A stretch of 11,450 nucleotides of DNA from Candidatus Omnitrophota bacterium (GTDB taxonomy: Bacteria > Omnitrophota > Koll11 > Gygaellales > Profunditerraquicolaceae): positions 1-11,450 of the forward strand of contig JAPLLP010000089.1 of the NCBI GenBank assembly GCA_026387515.1, written 5' to 3'. Below the pieces are notes generated by a model. The model worked only from the letters and a program-made list of their open reading frames with translations, was not told the DNA's origin and did not search any database. Position 1 is the stretch's first letter; each line of letters opens with the position of its first letter. Both the position numbers and the translations under genes were made by a program. Shown one piece after another: positions 1,545-9,171 of this stretch.

Positions 1545-2507
1545 CTACTTTTTATAGAGATTATCCATGTATTTATTGATTTTTTCTATTGCTTCGGGGT
1601 GGCGCATCACCAGGATGTCGGCACCTGCCTGTAACAGCGCCGTAGCGGTTATAACTTCCCAGATAATACCTCTGTTTTGTTCCGCTCCCCACTCCGGGAA
1701 TTCCTGTCCTGTTGCCCTGGCCTCTTTTGCCCTCCAGGCCTCCTGTCCTACAAAACAGATAAAAGGGGAAGCAACAGTTTTATCTCCTGCCAGGGCTGCC
1801 AAGCGGCAGCGCTCCATGATAGAATAGGCGTATTCTAGGCCATAACCTAAGGCGCCGATAGTGGGATTTATCACGATCCTCTCCAGGGGTAATCCCATAT
1901 CCGATATAAGGATATTCAGTTGTTTGGCTATATTTATATCTATGGGCGATTCGGCAATAAGGTTATGTCCGTCTGCCAATAGCGCTACTGTGAGTGTTTT
2001 ATAGCTGTCTTGCACTGCGTCGCCGATCAGACACCTCTCTCCCTTACTCGCCTGCGAACAGGCCGGGAGCACGGCATTATCTTTAGCATCGTCGCCGCAG
2101 CCGAGGATTATTAAGGGCACATCGACCTTCTTTAATATATCCACGATGAGCTTTGCCTCTTGTTCGGGAGACTTATTTCCAAAATCAGGGTGCGCCCCCT
2201 GCAGCCTCAAACAGATTAATTGCGCCTTAAAATCTTTCACGCATTTCTCGGCCCATCTAAGCGGGTCTTTTAGGCAATCTCCGTATGCGTCAGTGAGGTG
2301 TTTTGGCCAATCAAGCGGCGGAGTATCCCAGACCTCAAAGGCGACTATGCTTTTTTGCGGTAGCGCCCCTTCAGCAAATAAGAAAGGTAGGGTTTTTTGG
2401 CCCCCCACCTTGATAACCCGGCTTCTTGTGCCACCTTCTTCTTTGGTCGCTCCGATACTGACCGTGTTGATCGTGCCTGACCATTTTTCGAACATTAACT
2501 CTGCCAT
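1545..2507 (-). CDS. acsD: CoFeSP small subunit (CODH/ACS delta subunit)
   Basis: The small subunit of the corrinoid iron-sulfur protein. It pairs with the AcsC large subunit, and the heterodimer carries the methyl-cobamide from AcsE to the A-cluster of acetyl-CoA synthase. At 320 aa it matches bacterial AcsD and is a TIM barrel with a C-terminal cap. Recognisable stretches are VGGQKTLPFLFAEG (34-47), GCGDDAKDNAVLPAC (136-150), NPTIGALGYGLEYAYS (214-229), and MRHPEA (301-306) near the C-terminus. It has no Fe-S cysteine motif, as expected, since the cluster sits in AcsC. The ATG at 2507 overlaps the end of the cooC gene by 13 nt and has a GGGAGA site just upstream, so translation is likely coupled. 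The archaeal homologue is CdhD. Confidence 0.95.
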   Translation of the reverse strand: MAELMFEKWSGTINTVSIGATKEEGGTRSRVIKVGGQKTLPFLFAEGALPQKSIVAFEVWDTPPLDWPKHLTDAYGDCLKDPLRWAEKCVKDFKAQLICLRLQGAHPDFGNKSPEQEAKLIVDILKKVDVPLIILGCGDDAKDNAVLPACSQASKGERCLIGDAVQDSYKTLTVALLADGHNLIAESPIDINIAKQLNILISDMGLPLERIVINPTIGALGYGLEYAYSIMERCRLAALAGDKTVASPFICFVGQEAWRAKEARATGQEFPEWGAEQNRGIIWEVITATALLQAGADILVMRHPEAIEKINKYMDNLYKK

Positions 2508-3244
2508 AGCTTGTCTCCCAGGGTTCTCAATTTCACCAAGAGCGGTGCGTCATTATTCAGTTCCAGCACTGAATTGCCGTTCAGGCTTATCTCTGCGAGT
2601 TGTTCATCAACCGGGAGCTGGCCGATTAAGTCGAGCCCGGTACTTTTTATTTTTTCTTTTTCCAAGCCCCTTTCAAAACGGTTAACCAATAGCAGCCTGT
2701 TTCTTATGTCGATTTTAAGCTCTTGTGCCAATTCGTTAATGCGCCCGGCAGCCTTTAATCCTACGGGCGTGGCATCCGATATTACCAGTAGAGTATCTGC
2801 CTGGCGGGTAGTACGCCTGGACAGGTGCTCCAGGCCCGCCTCGTTATCTATTATTACATACTTATAGTCTTTAATCAACCTTGACATGACATTACGCAAT
2901 ACGTTGTTTACATAGCAATAACAGCCGGGGCCTTCGGGTTTACCCATGGTCAGCAGGTCAAAGCCCTCTGCTTCATAGACCGCTGATTGTACCTTATATT
3001 CGATGAATCTATCTTTAGTCATGCCGGCAGGGATATCCTGCGGGCGCGAGGCGACCTCATCTAGAATAGTGCCGATAGTCTCGGGAACCTTTATTCCCAA
3101 CACCTCGCCGAGATTGTTATTCGGGTCAGCGTCAATAGCCAGAATAGAGTTAACCTTTCGCTCTTTGAGCATCCGTACCAGGAGTCCGGCAATAGTAGTT
3201 TTACCTGTTCCTCCTTTTCCCGCCAAACAAATAGTATAACCCAT
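2495..3244 (-). CDS. CODH/ACS nickel-site maturation ATPase (CooC/AcsF type)
   Basis: A 249-aa MinD/NifH-like (SIMIBI) ATPase that helps insert nickel into CODH or acetyl-CoA synthase. The deviant Walker A motif KGGTGKTT is at 10-17, with the signature lysine K10. DADPNNNLG (38-46) forms switch I, and IIDNEAGLEHLSR (131-143) contains the Walker B aspartate. The PEGPGCYCYVNN segment (103-114) holds the CxC pair C108/C110 that binds metal across the dimer in CooC proteins and is typical of the AcsF-like branch found in acs clusters. The start codon overlaps the acsV stop by one base (TAATG), and acsD overlaps its end. CooC and AcsF cannot be separated by motif alone, so no symbol is given; the placement next to acsD and acsV fits either. 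Confidence 0.93.
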   Translation of the reverse strand: MGYTICLAGKGGTGKTTIAGLLVRMLKERKVNSILAIDADPNNNLGEVLGIKVPETIGTILDEVASRPQDIPAGMTKDRFIEYKVQSAVYEAEGFDLLTMGKPEGPGCYCYVNNVLRNVMSRLIKDYKYVIIDNEAGLEHLSRRTTRQADTLLVISDATPVGLKAAGRINELAQELKIDIRNRLLLVNRFERGLEKEKIKSTGLDLIGQLPVDEQLAEISLNGNSVLELNNDAPLLVKLRTLGDKLWQS

Positions 3245-5169
3245 TATTTTCCTATATTAGGGAACAGGGATAGATCCGTATGCGGGAAGAACAACGCCGC
3301 CATATATTCGTCCATGTATCCCGGTTCAGTGGATAGTTCAAGATAAGCCATTTTGCGCGCCACTTCATCGGCTTTCTCACGCGCCTCTTCTGACAGAAGG
3401 GCTTCCCGTGCCCCTGCCAAGGAACTATTCCCTATAAATTCAAACTTTTTCTTATTCATATCCGGTAATAGCCCGATCGAGATTGCCTTTTCCATGTCTA
3501 GATAAGTGCCAAACCCTCCGGCGATAAAGATCTTTTTTATATCGTTAAAGCTAAAGCCCATATGTTTGATCAGGATGGAAAGCGCTGAATATATCGCTGC
3601 CTTGGCCCGCTTTAGGTTTTCAATATCAGCTTCGTTGATCACAATGGGTTCTCCTGTGCCGGATTTTTCTTTGGGTACTACTATGAATTCTCGGACATTA
3701 TCCCTCTGGCGGATAAGGGCGCATTTAGAGTCTTTTATTTCCCCTCCCTTGTCTAAAATACCTGCTTTGAGCATTTCGGAAAGCAGATCAATATACCCGG
3801 AGCCGCAGATCCCTAACGGTTTAGTGTTACCGATAACCGAATAAGAGCTTTCCAGGGACCCGGGAGAAATCCGTATTTTTTGGATCGCCCCGTTTGACGC
3901 GCGCATGCCCGCGGATACCCCGCTTCCCTCAAATGCCGGGCCGGCAGAAGCCGCGCAAGAGATCAGAAATTCCTTGTTCCCTATGACGATTTCTCCGTTG
4001 GTGCCGATATCGATCAAGACAGAAAGCTCTTCCTGTTTATATAGCCCACTGGCAATTACCCCCGCGGTGACATCGCCTCCCACATAACTGGCCACTCCCG
4101 GCAGGCAAGTTAATAGCCCGCGGGGATTGATATGCAATTCAACTTCAGACGCGCGTAACACCGGAACAAAATTTAAGGTAGGCACATAGGGTTCGCGGCG
4201 GATATAAGTCGGATCAACGCGGAGCAATAAATGGATCATGGTGGTATTTCCGGCGCAGGCCACGCAGGTCACATCGTTTAGGTCGATGCCTTGTTCTTCG
4301 ACTAGGGATTTGATCATTTGGTTCATATCGTCTATTACTGCCTGATGTAATTCCTGTAACCCATCGCTATTCTTGGCATAGACAATACGGGTGATCACAT
4401 CACTGCCGAATGCCGCCTGTTTGTTGTAGGTGGCTTTGGTGCCCAGGATCTTGCCGGAAATCAAATTTACCAATTGCCCGCTTACGGTGGTGGTGCCGAT
4501 ATCGAATACAAAACCAAAATTCCTGGCAGATGTGTCTTGGGGTTCTATAAGCATGATTTCTGCCGTATCGTTCTTTTTCCCCACGGTAACCGTAATCTTC
4601 CAATCCGAAGAGCGCAATAGTTCGCTCAGATTTTTAATGCTGGTAAGGCTGGTATGGCTCACCAAAAGCCCGCTCTGGTCATTCAATTTACGCTCCAGCC
4701 GGTCAAGGTCGCTCAATTTATCTTCCAGGGTCGGCGCGGGCAGTTCCAGATAAAACTTGCGGGTAAAGGCGAGATGTTTAAATTTAGGGTTTTCATGTAT
4801 GTTTATCTCTTCGATATCTTCAGGCTCGGTATAATCTTTTTTGAGCCGTTGGCTTACTTCTTCTTGGGTTAATCCTTCGAGATTAAGGCGCGACTGTTGG
4901 GGAATCTGGACCTCCAGGTCGCTAAGCACCTCGCTTACGCAGGCCAGGTATATATTTTGACCTTTTTCTTCCTGGCTAATGTGGCCGGATGACTGCGTTA
5001 ATACCTGTCCCTTTTTTACGATTACCTTGCATCTGCCGCAGACCCCGTCGCCTCCACAGGAAGAGTTGATATAGATCCCGGCGGAAATCGCCGCGGTGAG
5101 GATAGTCGCATCTTTGGCCACTATTACCGTTTTATCATCCGGGTAAAAATGAACTCTGAATTTTTCCAT
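3244..5169 (-). CDS. acsV: Reductive activator of the corrinoid iron-sulfur protein (RACo)
   Basis: RACo uses ATP to drive reduction of accidentally oxidised Co(II)-CoFeSP back to the active Co(I) form. The 641-aa protein has the full domain order. An N-terminal plant-type [2Fe-2S] ferredoxin domain has ligands C38, C44, C47 and C77. A linker and small middle domain span about 90-215. A C-terminal ASKHA ATPase of about 420 residues has the phosphate motifs FDIGTTT (222-228) and IDIGTNGE (386-393) and the adenosine motif IAGGFGTY (549-556). Length and layout match the DUF4445 ASKHA proteins of bacterial acs clusters. The ATG at 5169 directly abuts the stop of the upstream unknown gene, and the stop overlaps the next start. 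Methyltransferase activators (RamA) are distant alternatives, but context favours CoFeSP as the partner. Cytoplasmic. Confidence 0.94.
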   Translation of the reverse strand: MEKFRVHFYPDDKTVIVAKDATILTAAISAGIYINSSCGGDGVCGRCKVIVKKGQVLTQSSGHISQEEKGQNIYLACVSEVLSDLEVQIPQQSRLNLEGLTQEEVSQRLKKDYTEPEDIEEINIHENPKFKHLAFTRKFYLELPAPTLEDKLSDLDRLERKLNDQSGLLVSHTSLTSIKNLSELLRSSDWKITVTVGKKNDTAEIMLIEPQDTSARNFGFVFDIGTTTVSGQLVNLISGKILGTKATYNKQAAFGSDVITRIVYAKNSDGLQELHQAVIDDMNQMIKSLVEEQGIDLNDVTCVACAGNTTMIHLLLRVDPTYIRREPYVPTLNFVPVLRASEVELHINPRGLLTCLPGVASYVGGDVTAGVIASGLYKQEELSVLIDIGTNGEIVIGNKEFLISCAASAGPAFEGSGVSAGMRASNGAIQKIRISPGSLESSYSVIGNTKPLGICGSGYIDLLSEMLKAGILDKGGEIKDSKCALIRQRDNVREFIVVPKEKSGTGEPIVINEADIENLKRAKAAIYSALSILIKHMGFSFNDIKKIFIAGGFGTYLDMEKAISIGLLPDMNKKKFEFIGNSSLAGAREALLSEEAREKADEVARKMAYLELSTEPGYMDEYMAALFFPHTDLSLFPNIGK

Positions 5170-5871
5170 TTATGCTAAATTAGGATTATTAAGCAGGGGG
5201 ATAAAGCAGGATAATCCGTGGTTTAAAAGATCGAGGTTCTCCTTTTCGTTTAAACGCCGGATCACCGGCTCAACCAGTGCCAGTTCCGATACAGCCTTAA
5301 ATTCATCTTCGGTCATGAAGTTACTGAAAATTTTCAAGCCGAAATTGAACTGGCTGTAACGAATAGGGATAATCGCGTAGCAGAAATTTATGATATCTTT
5401 CACGCATACCCTATCTCGTGCCTGCATTGTTCGCCGTAACTCTTCCTCATTTTCAAGGAAATATATGTAGTATGAATCCTGGTGATATTTAGGGCTGATA
5501 GGTATGAATCTGAGCATCTGGTCCCTGTTAGTAAAGATAAAATAAAACGGATACGAAAAATCCGGGTTAGAGAATAATTTTCTAAAGGAGATAGAAAGAA
5601 TGTCCTTTTTGGTTGCGCTGATGATTTTCTTGCCCACGTATTCCATAAAAAACGACGCGCTTTTGAAGTCATTGTTTTTGACCAAATCCATGTATTCATC
5701 CGCGACGAGAGAACCTTCTACTATCAATCCTTTTGGGGGGTGGACCAGATCCAGGAGTATGTTTCTGGCGATGTATTTGTCTTCAATTTTTAACTCCTTA
5801 GAGGTGGCTAGGTAACCATTATTTTCTCCGGATAAGACAATATAGTTATCTTTGAGTATTTGAGTAAGCAT
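5170..5871 (-). CDS. Uncharacterised 233-aa protein inside the acs cluster
   Basis: I do not recognise this protein. It is soluble-looking (no signal peptide or convincing membrane span), mixed alpha/beta, and aromatic-rich, with many Y and F in 105-140 and 164-185. It has three cysteines (C156, C164, C222) but no CxxC or other metal-cluster spacing. LVHPPKGLIVEG at 42-53 looks like a turn and strand, and EDEFKAVSELALVEPVIRRLNEKENLDLLN at about 188-217 is probably helical. The ATG at 5871 has an AAGGA ribosome site 9 nt upstream of it and lies 9 nt after the acsC fusion gene; its stop abuts the acsV start. This tight spacing between two CoFeSP-related genes suggests a role in CoFeSP assembly, activation or regulation, but that is inference from position only. 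Confidence 0.85.
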   Translation of the reverse strand: MLTQILKDNYIVLSGENNGYLATSKELKIEDKYIARNILLDLVHPPKGLIVEGSLVADEYMDLVKNNDFKSASFFMEYVGKKIISATKKDILSISFRKLFSNPDFSYPFYFIFTNRDQMLRFIPISPKYHQDSYYIYFLENEEELRRTMQARDRVCVKDIINFCYAIIPIRYSQFNFGLKIFSNFMTEDEFKAVSELALVEPVIRRLNEKENLDLLNHGLSCFIPLLNNPNLA

Positions 5872-5880
5872 GGAAGATCC

Positions 5881-7590
5881 TTATTGTAGGTTTTTCAGGA
5901 ATCCGGGAATACCTGCGGCCTCTTTCGGGCCAACGATTACTTCCCATCCGGATTGTTCCTGTAGGTCTCCGCTTAAAACCGCCACATATCCGGGGATGAT
6001 TACGCGTTTATGCGACACCGCATCAGAGACAGCGCATTTTTTCATCGCCGCGTTGATTTTTTCCGCATTAAATTTTTCCGCCGCCCAGGCAGTCAAAACC
6101 GACATCCCTTCGGTATCTACGCTCAAGATATAGGAAGGGATCTTACTTGCTTCTACTTCTCCCAGGACCGTGTAATAGGAAAGGGAGAAATTCGTGGTGA
6201 CTAAGAGCGGGGATTTTTCGCTGGCCTGGCCGATGGGGTAGAGCTTTGGCTCTATCTGTAAGGGTTTTTGCGGGTCGGTATAGATATTCTGCCGCAGGGT
6301 CAACAATGATAACGCAGACCAGGAGGAAATATTCTTAATTAGAACAATCCCGGCATATTTCGATATATAAGTAGCTGCTTCAATTGTCTCTTGGTAAGGG
6401 TCGCTGTTCTCTGTCACGGCAATAACCGGGAACCCCAGGCTGCGCATGGATTTTTTTAAGGCCTGGCGCCTTATTTGGGTCAGGTCCCAGATCTTATCGG
6501 CCACCGGCTTATCTTCTGTATTCAGGATTAAGTCCGTGACGCCGCGCTTATTTAATTCTATGGTCAACCGGGAAAGTTCATCCAATCCTTTGGCGCTCGC
6601 CACCAGCGGGCATTTGCTATCTTGAGCGACCTTGGCAATCTCGTCGATATTATCAAAGGTTAAAGGAAATAATAGCGGTTTTTTATTCTGCGATATCTTA
6701 GCCGCCTGGCCTAATGATTGATGGTCTTGACTCATAAGTACAAGGCCGAGGTTCGTATTCTCTAAGACTACCCCTAAGGCTTTTAGAAATCTGTCTTTAT
6801 CCTTTTTCTGTTTTATTGCTATCAGGTTGACGCTTAATTTTTGTCCCACCCGCTCGAAAGAAAATTTATTGATCTGGAGCACGTTTCTCTTTATTGTATT
6901 ATCGTCAAGGTCGTCTTCAATGATAAAGCCAATTGCGCAAGGGCGGTGGAATTTTTCTTCATGCCTGAATAATACGGTTTCATTTCCTATCTCTAATTTA
7001 TTTTCGCCTTCCCCGATCGATATTAGCTTAATCGGCGGTTGAGACGAGGCCTCAAGCGCCTTCTTAGCCTCCGGACTTAAAAAAGGGCACTTGTCTATGC
7101 TGACGGATTTTTTCGCCAACTGCATGGCAAAGGCGAGGCATGTGGAGAATCCGCATTGGCGGCAGTTAGTTTTGGGAAGCAGTTTATAAATATCAAGATT
7201 AAGCGCGTTAGTCCTAAACAATCTTCTCGCTAAAATTTCGGAATCGCTGTGGCCTTTTAAAGCGCCAAGGTTATTAATCAAGTTCTCTTTTAGGGTAAAC
7301 TCGGCCTTAGCATCATTTTTTTTATTGCGGAAAAGAATCCTTATATTATTCGCCGGCAACTTCTCTATATTTCCCTTGCCATAGGTAGAGCCGGTAGCCA
7401 ACTGTAATCCGTCGATCAGGCAGGATTTTGGTTTTTTGTCCGCGCCCCAGACCTTGACCTCCAAGCCAAAATATTTTTTCGCCTTGAGTTTCTCCAATGC
7501 CAGTTCTCCGGCCAGGACCCCAAGCACTAAATATGGCCCCAGATGGCCATGGAATTTTACCGCTTCTCTTAAATTTATTTTTTTAGGCAC
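5881..7590 (-). CDS. acsC: FmdE-like domain fused to CoFeSP large subunit AcsC
   Basis: A 569-aa fusion. Residues 1-126 resemble an FmdE domain (formylmethanofuran dehydrogenase subunit E family): FHGHLGPYLVLG at 13-24 and SCLIDGLQLATGSTYGKGN at 56-74. Compared with the usual FmdE motifs, the Cys after HGH is replaced by Gly (G18) and the GCT Cys by Ser (S68), while H14, H16 and C57 remain. Residues 127-569 are a full-length AcsC. The [4Fe-4S] ligands C143, C146, C151 and C168 have the spacing known for Moorella AcsC (17, 20, 25, 42), here offset by 126. A TIM barrel follows, then the corrinoid-binding C-terminus with SYYTVLGEVE (471-480) and DTEGMSVLTAWAA (492-504). AcsC holds the cobamide and low-potential cluster used in methyl transfer. 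The start is GTG at 7590, 6 nt after larB, without a strong ribosome site; no internal start near residue 127 is seen. The archaeal counterpart is CdhE. Confidence 0.92.
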   Translation of the reverse strand: MPKKINLREAVKFHGHLGPYLVLGVLAGELALEKLKAKKYFGLEVKVWGADKKPKSCLIDGLQLATGSTYGKGNIEKLPANNIRILFRNKKNDAKAEFTLKENLINNLGALKGHSDSEILARRLFRTNALNLDIYKLLPKTNCRQCGFSTCLAFAMQLAKKSVSIDKCPFLSPEAKKALEASSQPPIKLISIGEGENKLEIGNETVLFRHEEKFHRPCAIGFIIEDDLDDNTIKRNVLQINKFSFERVGQKLSVNLIAIKQKKDKDRFLKALGVVLENTNLGLVLMSQDHQSLGQAAKISQNKKPLLFPLTFDNIDEIAKVAQDSKCPLVASAKGLDELSRLTIELNKRGVTDLILNTEDKPVADKIWDLTQIRRQALKKSMRSLGFPVIAVTENSDPYQETIEAATYISKYAGIVLIKNISSWSALSLLTLRQNIYTDPQKPLQIEPKLYPIGQASEKSPLLVTTNFSLSYYTVLGEVEASKIPSYILSVDTEGMSVLTAWAAEKFNAEKINAAMKKCAVSDAVSHKRVIIPGYVAVLSGDLQEQSGWEVIVGPKEAAGIPGFLKNLQ

Positions 7591-7596
7591 AGATTA

Positions 7597-8265
7597 TTAT
7601 TTGTTTATTAAAGACGCAAAATACCCGGCACCGAAACCATTATCGATATTTACTACCGTCACTCCGGGGGAACAACAGTTAAGCATACTCAGTAATGCCG
7701 ACAGGCCTTGGAAATTTGCCCCGTATCCGCAGCTTGTGGGTACGGCAATAACCGGAGAGCTCACCAATCCGCTTACTAAGCTAGCCAGCGCGCCCTCCAT
7801 CCCCGCGACCACGATGATTACTTTGGCCTTTTGAATGTCTTTCAGGTTACGCATCAGCCGGTGCACTCCGGCAACTCCCACATCATAGAGCCTGCTTACG
7901 CAATTACCCATTACTTCCAAGGTAACAGCTGCTTCTTCAGCTACCGGGATATCCGAGGTCCCTGCTGAAATAACTAATACCGAACCCTTTTTGAAGGTAT
8001 TTTTACCGGGCCTCCAATAAGCTAACTTGGCCCGGGGGTTGTATTTTAGCGCGGGAAAATAAGTCTTGAGCCAGCGGTAGGTTTTTTCGTCTAATTTGGT
8101 TAAAAGTATCTCTTGTTTCTGCTTGAGTAGTTCCCGTACAATCTTTTTTAATTGTGTTTTTGTCTTTCCGGGGCAAAAGATGGCTTCAGAGTACCCCCGG
8201 CGCTTTGGCCGGTCCACGTCTAATTTGGCGAAGCCTAAGTCTTGGTAGCCACAAGGAAAAACCAT
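7597..8265 (-). CDS. larB: Pyridinium-3,5-biscarboxylic acid mononucleotide synthase (LarB)
   Basis: LarB carboxylates the pyridine ring of nicotinic acid adenine dinucleotide and cleaves off AMP. This is the first step to the nickel-pincer cofactor (NPN) of lactate racemase-type enzymes. The 222-aa protein has the expected PurE/AIR-carboxylase-like C-terminal domain: SAGTSDIPVAEEAA (100-113), DVGVAGVHRL (128-137), VVAGMEGAL (152-160) and VPTSCGYGA (175-183). C179 corresponds to the catalytic cysteine reported for Lactobacillus LarB, and NIDNGFGAG (206-214) is near the end. The N-terminal GFAKLDVDRPKRRGYSEAIF (11-30) is the family's lead-in. The ATG at 8265 abuts the previous stop (TAAATG) with AAGGA just upstream. 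larC, larE and larA are not in the window, so the final product cannot be inferred. It belongs to the acs gene train by spacing. Confidence 0.93.
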   Translation of the reverse strand: MVFPCGYQDLGFAKLDVDRPKRRGYSEAIFCPGKTKTQLKKIVRELLKQKQEILLTKLDEKTYRWLKTYFPALKYNPRAKLAYWRPGKNTFKKGSVLVISAGTSDIPVAEEAAVTLEVMGNCVSRLYDVGVAGVHRLMRNLKDIQKAKVIIVVAGMEGALASLVSGLVSSPVIAVPTSCGYGANFQGLSALLSMLNCCSPGVTVVNIDNGFGAGYFASLINK

Positions 8266-8574
8266 TTAATCCTTCAGTATTACCGTAATTATCAGCCCGA
8301 TGAGAATGAACGCCAGGATATAGAAATCGTTGAAATAGAAAAAATCGCTTAATCTGTCACCAAAAGTGTATCTATCTTTCGTCGACTCTTTATGTTGTTG
8401 CGGCCTGACCTTTTTTCTATGGGCTTCTATCTCCTGCCGTTTAAAGCGTAAATACACTCCGCCTATTTTGTATGCGGGTATGGCCCCGGAATCAGCCAGG
8501 TTCATTACATCTTTTTCGGATATCCCCAATAGCCCAGAAACTTCTCTTATGGTCAATAATTTCTCTTCAGACAT
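8266..8574 (-). CDS. Membrane-anchored excisionase-type HTH protein
   Basis: A 102-aa protein. Residues 5-55 are a winged helix-turn-helix of the excisionase/MerR-like (HTH_17) type: LLTIREVSGLLGISEKDVMNLADSG, then the wing IPAYKIGGVYLRFKRQEIEAH. A charged linker (56-80) and one hydrophobic segment (about 84-100, ending in KD) follow, which suggests a C-terminal tail anchor with the HTH in the cytoplasm. It may recruit DNA or another protein to the membrane, or act as a membrane-bound regulator; its target is unknown. It sits 7 nt after the bactofilin-HTH gene, whose C-terminal domain has the same HTH type, and directly before larB. The ATG at 8574 has no strong ribosome site, so translation may be coupled to the gene before it. 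Confidence 0.85.
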   Translation of the reverse strand: MSEEKLLTIREVSGLLGISEKDVMNLADSGAIPAYKIGGVYLRFKRQEIEAHRKKVRPQQHKESTKDRYTFGDRLSDFFYFNDFYILAFILIGLIITVILKD

Positions 8575-8581
8575 GGTTATT

Positions 8582-9088
8582 TTACTTTCTTACCTCTCCG
8601 GAGGCAACCCAGGTGTCTATGGCCTTTCGCTCGAATTTCCAGTTTTCTCCCTCTTTGATCGCCGGGATCTTCCCTGAATTTGCCCATTCCATGATCGAAT
8701 TCAGGTCTAGTTCCAGATAGCGAGAGAGTTCATCGGTGTTAAGGAAATCGCGCAGCATAAAACACTGACCCTCAAGTATCGCCCCTTCTGCAATATTTAA
8801 TTTTGCCGGGTAGATTTTCCCTTCTACGATCGCGCTAGGCAGAAGTGTCAGGCGATGCCTGGCAGTAATGGTTCCTTTTATCCTACCTCCTACTATGATG
8901 TTGTCTCCGATGATATCCGCGAATACTACTGCTGTTGGCCCGATCGTAAGATTCCCTTTAGTATCCAGATTTCCCTCAAATTTACCATTGATGCGTAAGT
9001 TTACCGAGTCCTTGAAACTTAGAGTTCCCTGCATTGCAGCATCAACATCCAACGTCTTTTCTTCGGTTTTTTTCCTGTTAAATGCCAT
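8582..9088 (-). CDS. Bactofilin with C-terminal HTH domain
   Basis: A 168-aa protein. Residues 16-110 are a bactofilin (DUF583) right-handed beta-helix with repeating strands such as GNLTIGPTAVVFADI (45-59) and KLNIAEGAILEGQ (96-108). Bactofilins polymerise without nucleotides into scaffolds, often at the membrane. Residues 115-163 are an excisionase-type HTH, beginning FLNTDELSRYLELDLNSIMEW. This domain may act in protein contacts rather than DNA binding. A longer frame exists upstream (to 9157), but ATG at 9088 is chosen because of the strong AAGGAGGG site at 9094-9101, 5 nt away, and because the extra 23 residues have no bactofilin character. Two overlapping hairpins lie just upstream. It is first in the close-packed gene train that continues to dgkA. 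Confidence 0.9.
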   Translation of the reverse strand: MAFNRKKTEEKTLDVDAAMQGTLSFKDSVNLRINGKFEGNLDTKGNLTIGPTAVVFADIIGDNIIVGGRIKGTITARHRLTLLPSAIVEGKIYPAKLNIAEGAILEGQCFMLRDFLNTDELSRYLELDLNSIMEWANSGKIPAIKEGENWKFERKAIDTWVASGEVRK

Positions 9089-9093
9089 TTTAG

Positions 9094-9101
9094 CCCTCCT
9101 T
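9094..9101 (-). promoter_or_regulatory. Strong ribosome site that fixes the bactofilin start
   Basis: AAGGAGGG lies 5 nt upstream of ATG 9088. Its first two bases are shared with the right arm of the upstream 12-bp inverted repeat (9100-9111), so formation of that hairpin would partly bury the site. Confidence 0.8.
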
Positions 9102-9145
9102 ATTTTATCCCACATCCGTGCTCGGGATAAAATAACCCCGAGCAC
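9100..9145 (-). promoter_or_regulatory. Two overlapping, mutually exclusive hairpins in the bactofilin leader
   Basis: In the minus-strand transcript the first stem is 9 bp, GTGCTCGGG-type (arms 9137-9145 and 9118-9126, 10-nt loop). The second is 12 bp and perfect (arms 9124-9135 and 9100-9111, 12-nt loop). The second uses the loop and three bases of the first, so the two full stems cannot coexist; a pseudoknot of the first stem with loop-to-downstream pairing is also possible. The second stem ends at the ribosome site at 9094-9101. The first might also act as the mgtC terminator, but no U-run follows it. A regulatory switch is inference from structure alone. Confidence 0.55.
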
Positions 9146-9171
9146 TGCGAGGGGCAAGGATTGTTTGTAGT

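Follow-up and report, generated by a model that had tools for sequence, protein, structure and literature searches.

FmdE-type domains (PF02663) are represented by three solved members. According to PMC2954224, their core binds Zn or mixed Zn/Ni through His15, His17, Cys19, and Cys55 (2glz numbering), metal is absent from the core site in one of the three, and the dimer interface involves an Asp, a Gln, and a Thr; the same paper reports that most PF02663 genes adjoin metal transporters. AcsC, the large subunit of CFeSP (or CoFeSP), also has a solved structure (2h9a), which served as the reference for aligning its Fe-S cysteines. Omnitrophota, to which the DNA analyzed here belongs, has been described as a phylum without an isolate (PMC10066038). 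In that paper's main text, the terms acsC, CODH, lactate racemase, and formylmethanofuran were not found; acsABCDE appears in a figure legend. No description of a LarB and FmdE-like arrangement in a CODH/ACS operon was found in the open-licence literature searched.

The joined reading frame and its operon

The window, a stretch of 11,450 nucleotides (contig JAPLLP010000089.1), carries a CODH/ACS accessory operon on its minus strand. The gene order starts with genes for a polysaccharide deacetylase-like protein, TsaD, an MgtC-like protein, a bactofilin with HTH_17, a second HTH_17 protein, LarB, and the joined FmdE-AcsC protein, and continues with a 233-aa protein, AcsV, a CooC-like ATPase, AcsD, AcsE, and a DgkA-like protein. 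Nine of these proteins were scanned against Pfam and seven against NCBIfam; the deacetylase, TsaD, MgtC, DgkA, and CooC names are those that we presume from the look of the sequences. LarB (positions 7597 to 8265, minus strand, 222 aa) lies directly upstream of the joined frame and matches NF033503 at 295.4 bits (cut-off, 175). Downstream on the same strand are AcsV, a RACo-type corrinoid activator (3244 to 5169; RACo_C_ter, 3.9e-103; AcsV model, 701.5 bits, below its cut-off of 800), a CooC-like P-loop ATPase (2495 to 3244; profiles AAA_31, CbiA, and Fer4_NifH), the CFeSP small subunit AcsD (1545 to 2507; NF003376, 423.8 bits; cut-off, 280), and an AcsE-like methyltransferase (747 to 1535; NF005719, 302.2 bits; cut-off, 259). 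Together, these genes would supply the methyl-transfer section of the acetyl-CoA pathway along with the proteins that maintain it.

The 233-aa protein between AcsC and AcsV (5170 to 5871, minus strand) had no Pfam or NCBIfam match above cut-off and was absent from the neighborhoods of the 80 related loci described below; a search of 384 genomes also returned no match, in a search that lacked a positive, so that its empty answer carries no weight. The G+C content of this gene, 0.393, was the lowest among the 14 genes measured. At 8266 to 9157 (minus strand), a bactofilin with HTH_17 on its C-terminal side stands beside the second, short HTH_17 protein, and most of the 80 loci keep this pair in the same place ahead of LarB.

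The joined frame (5881 to 7590, minus strand) encodes 569 aa from a GTG start and was confirmed as a real open reading frame in which an FmdE domain is followed by a nearly whole AcsC. Pfam placed FmdE (PF02663) at residues 13 to 103 (6.1e-16; 59.1 bits against a gathering cut-off of 22.9), FeS at 138 to 170 (3.8e-14), and CdhD at 190 to 564 (5.3e-98), and the AcsC/CdhE model NF003195 of NCBIfam scored 560.6 bits against a curated cut-off of 306. The profile check proposed in an earlier note on this DNA thus gave matches above cut-off to both families, and the FmdE motifs it had named (HGH at 14 to 16, C57, and GKGN at 71 to 74) are present. Its further statement that four Fe-S cysteines keep the known spacing at an offset of 126 agrees with our alignment, in which cysteines 143, 146, 151, and 168 correspond to 17, 20, 25, and 42 of 2h9a.

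The domain boundary, which the note had set at residue 126, lies instead between residues 132 and 133, since a separate short protein, P0152, is identical to the frame over residues 1 to 132. The FmdE-like part therefore spans 7195 to 7590 (residues 1 to 132, with H14, H16, C57, and Gly18), as defined by PF02663, identity to P0152, and fold, and the AcsC part spans 5881 to 7194 (residues 133 to 569, AcsC residue 7 onward, plus the stop), as defined by NF003195 and the 2h9a alignment, both on the minus strand. Comparison with P0152 and relatives puts the junction at the codons CTT (Leu132) and GAT (Asp133), 7192 to 7197, minus strand. Among the 80 related loci, the AcsC N terminus reads MALSGL in 62 and a close variant in 15 and does not match the pattern in 3, one of which may be a locus whose start reads N (L018). 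In the joined frame, FmdE residues stand where AcsC normally has its start codon and first six residues: residue 132 runs straight into AcsC residue 7, so that the MALSGL|DIYK of the relatives becomes TNALNL followed by DIYKLLPK. TNALNL and MALSGL match without a gap at the junction, and there is no linker between the two parts. The full-length AcsC of the earlier note is consequently whole only from residue 7. Both halves look intact.

Separate genes in relatives and the origin of the joining

Relatives were collected by scanning genome contigs with the fusion as query; 96 were found and the best 80 loci kept, 77 of them titled Omnitrophota or Omnitrophica, two (L029 and L042) "bacterium," and one (L061) Pacebacteria. 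An FmdE-like gene directly precedes acsC in 38 of the 80 loci and is a separate frame in all 38. On a quick, midpoint-rooted AcsC tree, the window pairs with locus L001 at support 100; the spacer between the two genes in that locus is 15 nt. A further 33 regions (32 fetched plus L081) gave the same picture: FmdE and AcsC are separate and in that order in 33/33, and LarB precedes FmdE in 30/33. Twenty of the 33 are new in a comparison made against the first 38. In L081 (G347:C21, approximately 5044 to 6345), acsC occupies two frames after a normal FmdE gene, which reflects either a broken gene or a sequence error.

Broader searches gave no second joined frame. An FmdE profile matched 75 of 384 genomes of the phylum, and the longest frame with a match was one of 369 aa with an internal stop (G347), in which the FmdE gene is itself a 134-aa frame. 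Searching the FmdE part against proteins of 313 to 996 aa gave 31 matches among 1307 candidates, every one a nucleoside hydrolase joined to FmdE and none an AcsC fusion. With residues 40 to 260 as the query, in a search that detects only relatives sharing exact words, 6920 of 7999 scored candidates matched, and the best 120 cover the AcsC side only (58 to 59%); a second fusion should have outranked these. Thus, the joined frame was seen in no second genome (0/38 loci, 0/33 regions, and none among the protein matches listed). Within this coverage the joined state is private, in keeping with the earlier note's remark that no standard AcsC with such an extension was known to it, and a fusion family was rejected as a candidate on the same searches and the 384 genomes.

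The FmdE part alone gave 903 matches among 962 candidates, of which the best 120 were examined. The top match among those listed was P0152, a 136-aa protein on a 1977-base contig that is 100% identical to residues 1 to 132; the next relatives listed are 71 to 73% identical. P0152 is probably from the same species as the window, judging from this identity. After residue 132 it ends in FNLC and has no AcsC part. That end may be a contig end; the sequence still departs from the window after residue 132. As to the earlier note's proviso that homologs might prove to be two genes joined here by an error, the genes are indeed separate in relatives (38/38 and 33/33, with P0152 unfused), but a frame error in this contig is only one possible cause. 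The tie between the FmdE-like protein and AcsC holds as one of conserved neighboring genes.

We consider it probable that separate fmdE-like and acsC genes were joined here by a private, recent, in-frame loss and that the FmdE-like protein of the conserved pair is a metal-handling accessory of the CODH/ACS operon. Because the spacer in the 38 loci ranges from 0 to 138 nt, and because in 9 of the 38 pairs both genes lie in the same frame and are parted by a stop, a small deletion is able to fuse them. We infer such an event from the comparison of sequences: a strain-level loss of a few dozen bases would have taken the FmdE end, the stop, the spacer, and the acsC start, giving FmdE residues 1 to 132 followed by AcsC from residue 7, and it would amount to 48 nt if the spacer was as in L001. 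A single missed stop was rejected as a full explanation, because the acsC start is lost as well, and so is the end of FmdE. It is possible, though unlikely, that the organism has two separate genes and that the contig skips a few dozen bases between their alike ends (RTNALNL and MALSGL) through an assembly or sequencing artifact. The unfused P0152 with its identical FmdE part and the absence of fused relatives (0/38 loci, 0/33 regions) would fit such an error. However, a frame-keeping loss of this size is generally an unusual assembly error, and the similar stretch would be short relative to the word length of assemblers. A true deletion is favored over an artifact, given that the reading frame stays open through both genes and that the adjoining operon genes are whole by profile match.

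If the joining is real, the large subunit of the cell's CoFeSP would carry an FmdE domain, riding without a linker on the N-terminal Fe-S domain of AcsC, and the cell would probably tolerate it. With the usual AcsC start absent, AcsC would have to be translated from the start of FmdE, unless initiation took place at an internal TTG (for example, codon 124). That the FmdE tether was selected, giving this lineage metal delivery or a contact to the Fe-S domain on CoFeSP, is very improbable. The frame is retained with both halves intact, the two genes are conserved operon neighbors, and FmdE domains are fused elsewhere, in the 31 nucleoside hydrolases and in archaeal cases described in PMC11237513; yet the arrangement does not recur in the loci, regions, 384 genomes, or listed protein matches, the FmdE-like protein P0152, probably from the same species, is not fused, and the joined frame lacks a linker and has lost the conserved AcsC start. 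The suggestion that the fusion adds a function to CoFeSP as an evolved device is therefore unsupported, with the genes separate in 38/38 loci and 33/33 regions and in P0152. Under the favored reading of a private loss, the fusion alone says little, because it appears private and recent; the conserved neighbor gene is the part worth study.

Putative metal site of the FmdE-like subfamily and its place beside LarB

The FmdE-like proteins at these loci form a subfamily with a distinctive putative metal site. Three of the four metal ligands are kept (H14, H16, and C57), and the fourth, the Cys of FHGHxC, is Gly18; residues 18 and 57 here are equivalent to Cys19 and Cys55 of the solved structures (PMC2954224). 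In the alignment including the window, Gly18 is found in all 38 rows with a letter there, whereas position 68 varies over 39 rows (A, 32; C, 4; S, 3). Across 50 rows, H14, H16, C57, D60, Q63, T69, and Gly18 are invariant. The earlier note had seen cysteines replaced at both 18 and 68: G18 does replace a true metal ligand, but the equivalent of residue 68 is not among the ligands described for the solved FmdE structures in PMC2954224. The altered metal site it pointed to is real but subfamily-wide, and hence no hallmark of the fusion, and decay of one copy was rejected as the reason for the lost cysteines, given that Gly18 is general and residue 68 is rarely Cys. From the alignment, the site appears to be a three-ligand variant common to the subfamily. 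The predicted structure of residues 1 to 132 (pLDDT, 92.6; pTM, 0.88; 50 rows) had three PDB fold matches below 0.001, all of them FmdE (2gvi and 2glz chains A and B), and the model recovers the FmdE core fold with values of 1.0e-6 for 2gvi and 1.1e-5 for 2glz and TM-scores of 0.66 to 0.74 on the query. When FmdE-only and AcsC-only rows were aligned together, the FmdE rows were misplaced (23 to 33% identity).

The gene order LarB, FmdE-like, AcsC is conserved inside the CODH/ACS operon of many Omnitrophota. In the slot before AcsC, the 80 loci show FmdE (38), LarC (3), or neither (39), and on the AcsC tree of 81 rows (quick tree, midpoint root), these three states need 10 changes versus 29.0 with shuffled labels. 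LarB directly precedes FmdE in 36 of the 38 loci; the exceptions are L044, which starts inside FmdE, and L077, which has no LarB in the locus. In the genomes of L077 (G135) and L104 (G260), FmdE is present and LarB lies elsewhere. In three divergent loci (L074:8799-10001, L076:8775-10004, and L080:8805-10004), the gene that separates LarB from AcsC encodes LarC (PF01969), the nickel insertion protein. In seven of the 39 loci with neither gene (L048, L053, L058, L059, L063, L067, and L068), LarB was not seen either, and a candidate LarB-AcsC join in L018 was rejected because a run of N separates the two genes. Since 39 of the 80 loci, including L018 with its N run, show neither FmdE nor LarC in the slot, the FmdE-like protein is dispensable for many.

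Partner genes were surveyed in 35 genomes, 20 with FmdE at the locus and 15 without. The FmdE profile matched 20/20 of the former versus 0/15 of the latter, and CdhC was found in 34/35. LarB was above cut-off in 34/35 and in 19/19 further FmdE genomes, that is, in 39/39 FmdE genomes tested overall; LarE was above cut-off in 18/20 FmdE genomes and 12/15 FmdE-free ones (30/35). LarC1 was found in 2/35 (G033 and G034), both FmdE-free, and the LarA-type Lar_N domain was above cut-off in 4/35, strongly so in two (G019, whose match has one internal stop, and G020). Such counts (LarB, 34; LarE, 30; Lar_N, 4; LarC1, 2 of 35) point to a gapped nickel-pincer pathway or to LarB and LarE being used otherwise. 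One of the two genomes with a strong Lar_N match (G020; L082:1800-6217) also has a second AcsB-type gene; a long but weak match to FmdE (8e-5) and a Cys/Met PLP enzyme lie immediately upstream of it.

These patterns bear on the idea that the FmdE-like protein stands in for LarC by inserting nickel into the LarB/LarE product, which we regard as improbable. LarC takes the same slot in the three divergent loci, LarB and LarE accompany FmdE in 39/39 and 18/20 genomes, the two genomes with strong LarA matches have LarB and LarE and no LarC, and an FmdE relative has been described with partial Ni (PMC2954224). Among the 384 genomes, LarC was found in 0/50 with short FmdE versus 87/334 others (Fisher, 1.8e-6, uncorrected for kinship), and in 12/21 genomes with the long FmdE type. 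The 50 were hand-picked and comprise genomes with a frame of 133 to 166 aa whose match begins at profile position 1, together with G347 and its internal stop; the 21 include G283 (168 aa), G342, and others with long, weak matches; and edge, partial, or weak cases (G167, G131, G187, G091, and a small hit, G118:C3) are in neither set. Against the idea, 13 of the 15 FmdE-free genomes also lack LarC, so that LarC can be lost without FmdE, and shared ancestry is able to account for the lack of overlap; in addition, the LarC genomes G033 and G034 have no LarA match, LarA is above cut-off in only 4/35, and genomes may be incomplete. The case for FmdE as a general replacement of LarC is weak on the same count of 13/15. 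The co-occurrence pattern would allow a LarC-like role for FmdE; many genomes have neither.

Proposed role and comparison with known systems

Function most plausibly lies in the conserved gene pair and not in the fusion. A metal-handling role for the FmdE-like protein is likely, as we infer from its family and neighbors: it would most likely be a small, probably dimeric, metal-binding CODH/ACS accessory, holding Zn or Ni through H14, H16, and C57 and acting in nickel or cofactor handling beside LarB, and such a protein next to LarB and a CooC-like ATPase would fit the supply of nickel or cofactor. The counterpoint is that one of the four ligands is missing. The more specific proposal that HGHLGP-type FmdE is a nickel-handling LarB partner replacing LarC in the CODH/ACS operon of many Omnitrophota, which would link nickel-pincer-type chemistry to the acetyl-CoA pathway and would here be fused to CoFeSP, is quite improbable. 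If the FmdE-like protein does handle nickel, HGHLGP-type FmdE would gain a testable function that could help account for LarB in LarC-free genomes.

Among known systems, AcsC/CdhE proteins (NF003195; 2h9a, 4c1n, and 4djd) share with the joined frame the Fe-S cysteine pattern and the whole length from residue 7; here, the FmdE domain takes the place of their start codon and six N-terminal residues. The FmdE-like part agrees with FmdE proteins (PF02663; 2glz, 2gvi, and 3d00) in profile and fold, in three metal-site residues (two His, one Cys), and in the Asp/Gln/Thr dimer motif, but it has Gly18 for the Cys of FHGHxC and no zinc finger, and its context is LarB and AcsC rather than formylmethanofuran dehydrogenase. 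The closest FmdE domains found in long proteins, in the search of those of 313 to 996 aa, are those of the nucleoside hydrolase-FmdE proteins (PF01156 plus PF02663; P0001 to P0031), which share the HGHLGP motif (31/31) but have another partner, carry FmdE on the C-terminal side, and have Cys at the position equivalent to residue 68. With such domains paired elsewhere with LarB, an N-riboside link is conceivable. LarC (PF01969) sits at the same place in three loci, after LarB and ahead of AcsC, but has no sequence family in common with FmdE, the FmdE parts having no PF01969 match. In the archaeal fusions described in PMC11237513, an FmdE domain is likewise occasionally fused, but to a tRNA methyltransferase domain or a regulator and in 3 to 7 assemblies.
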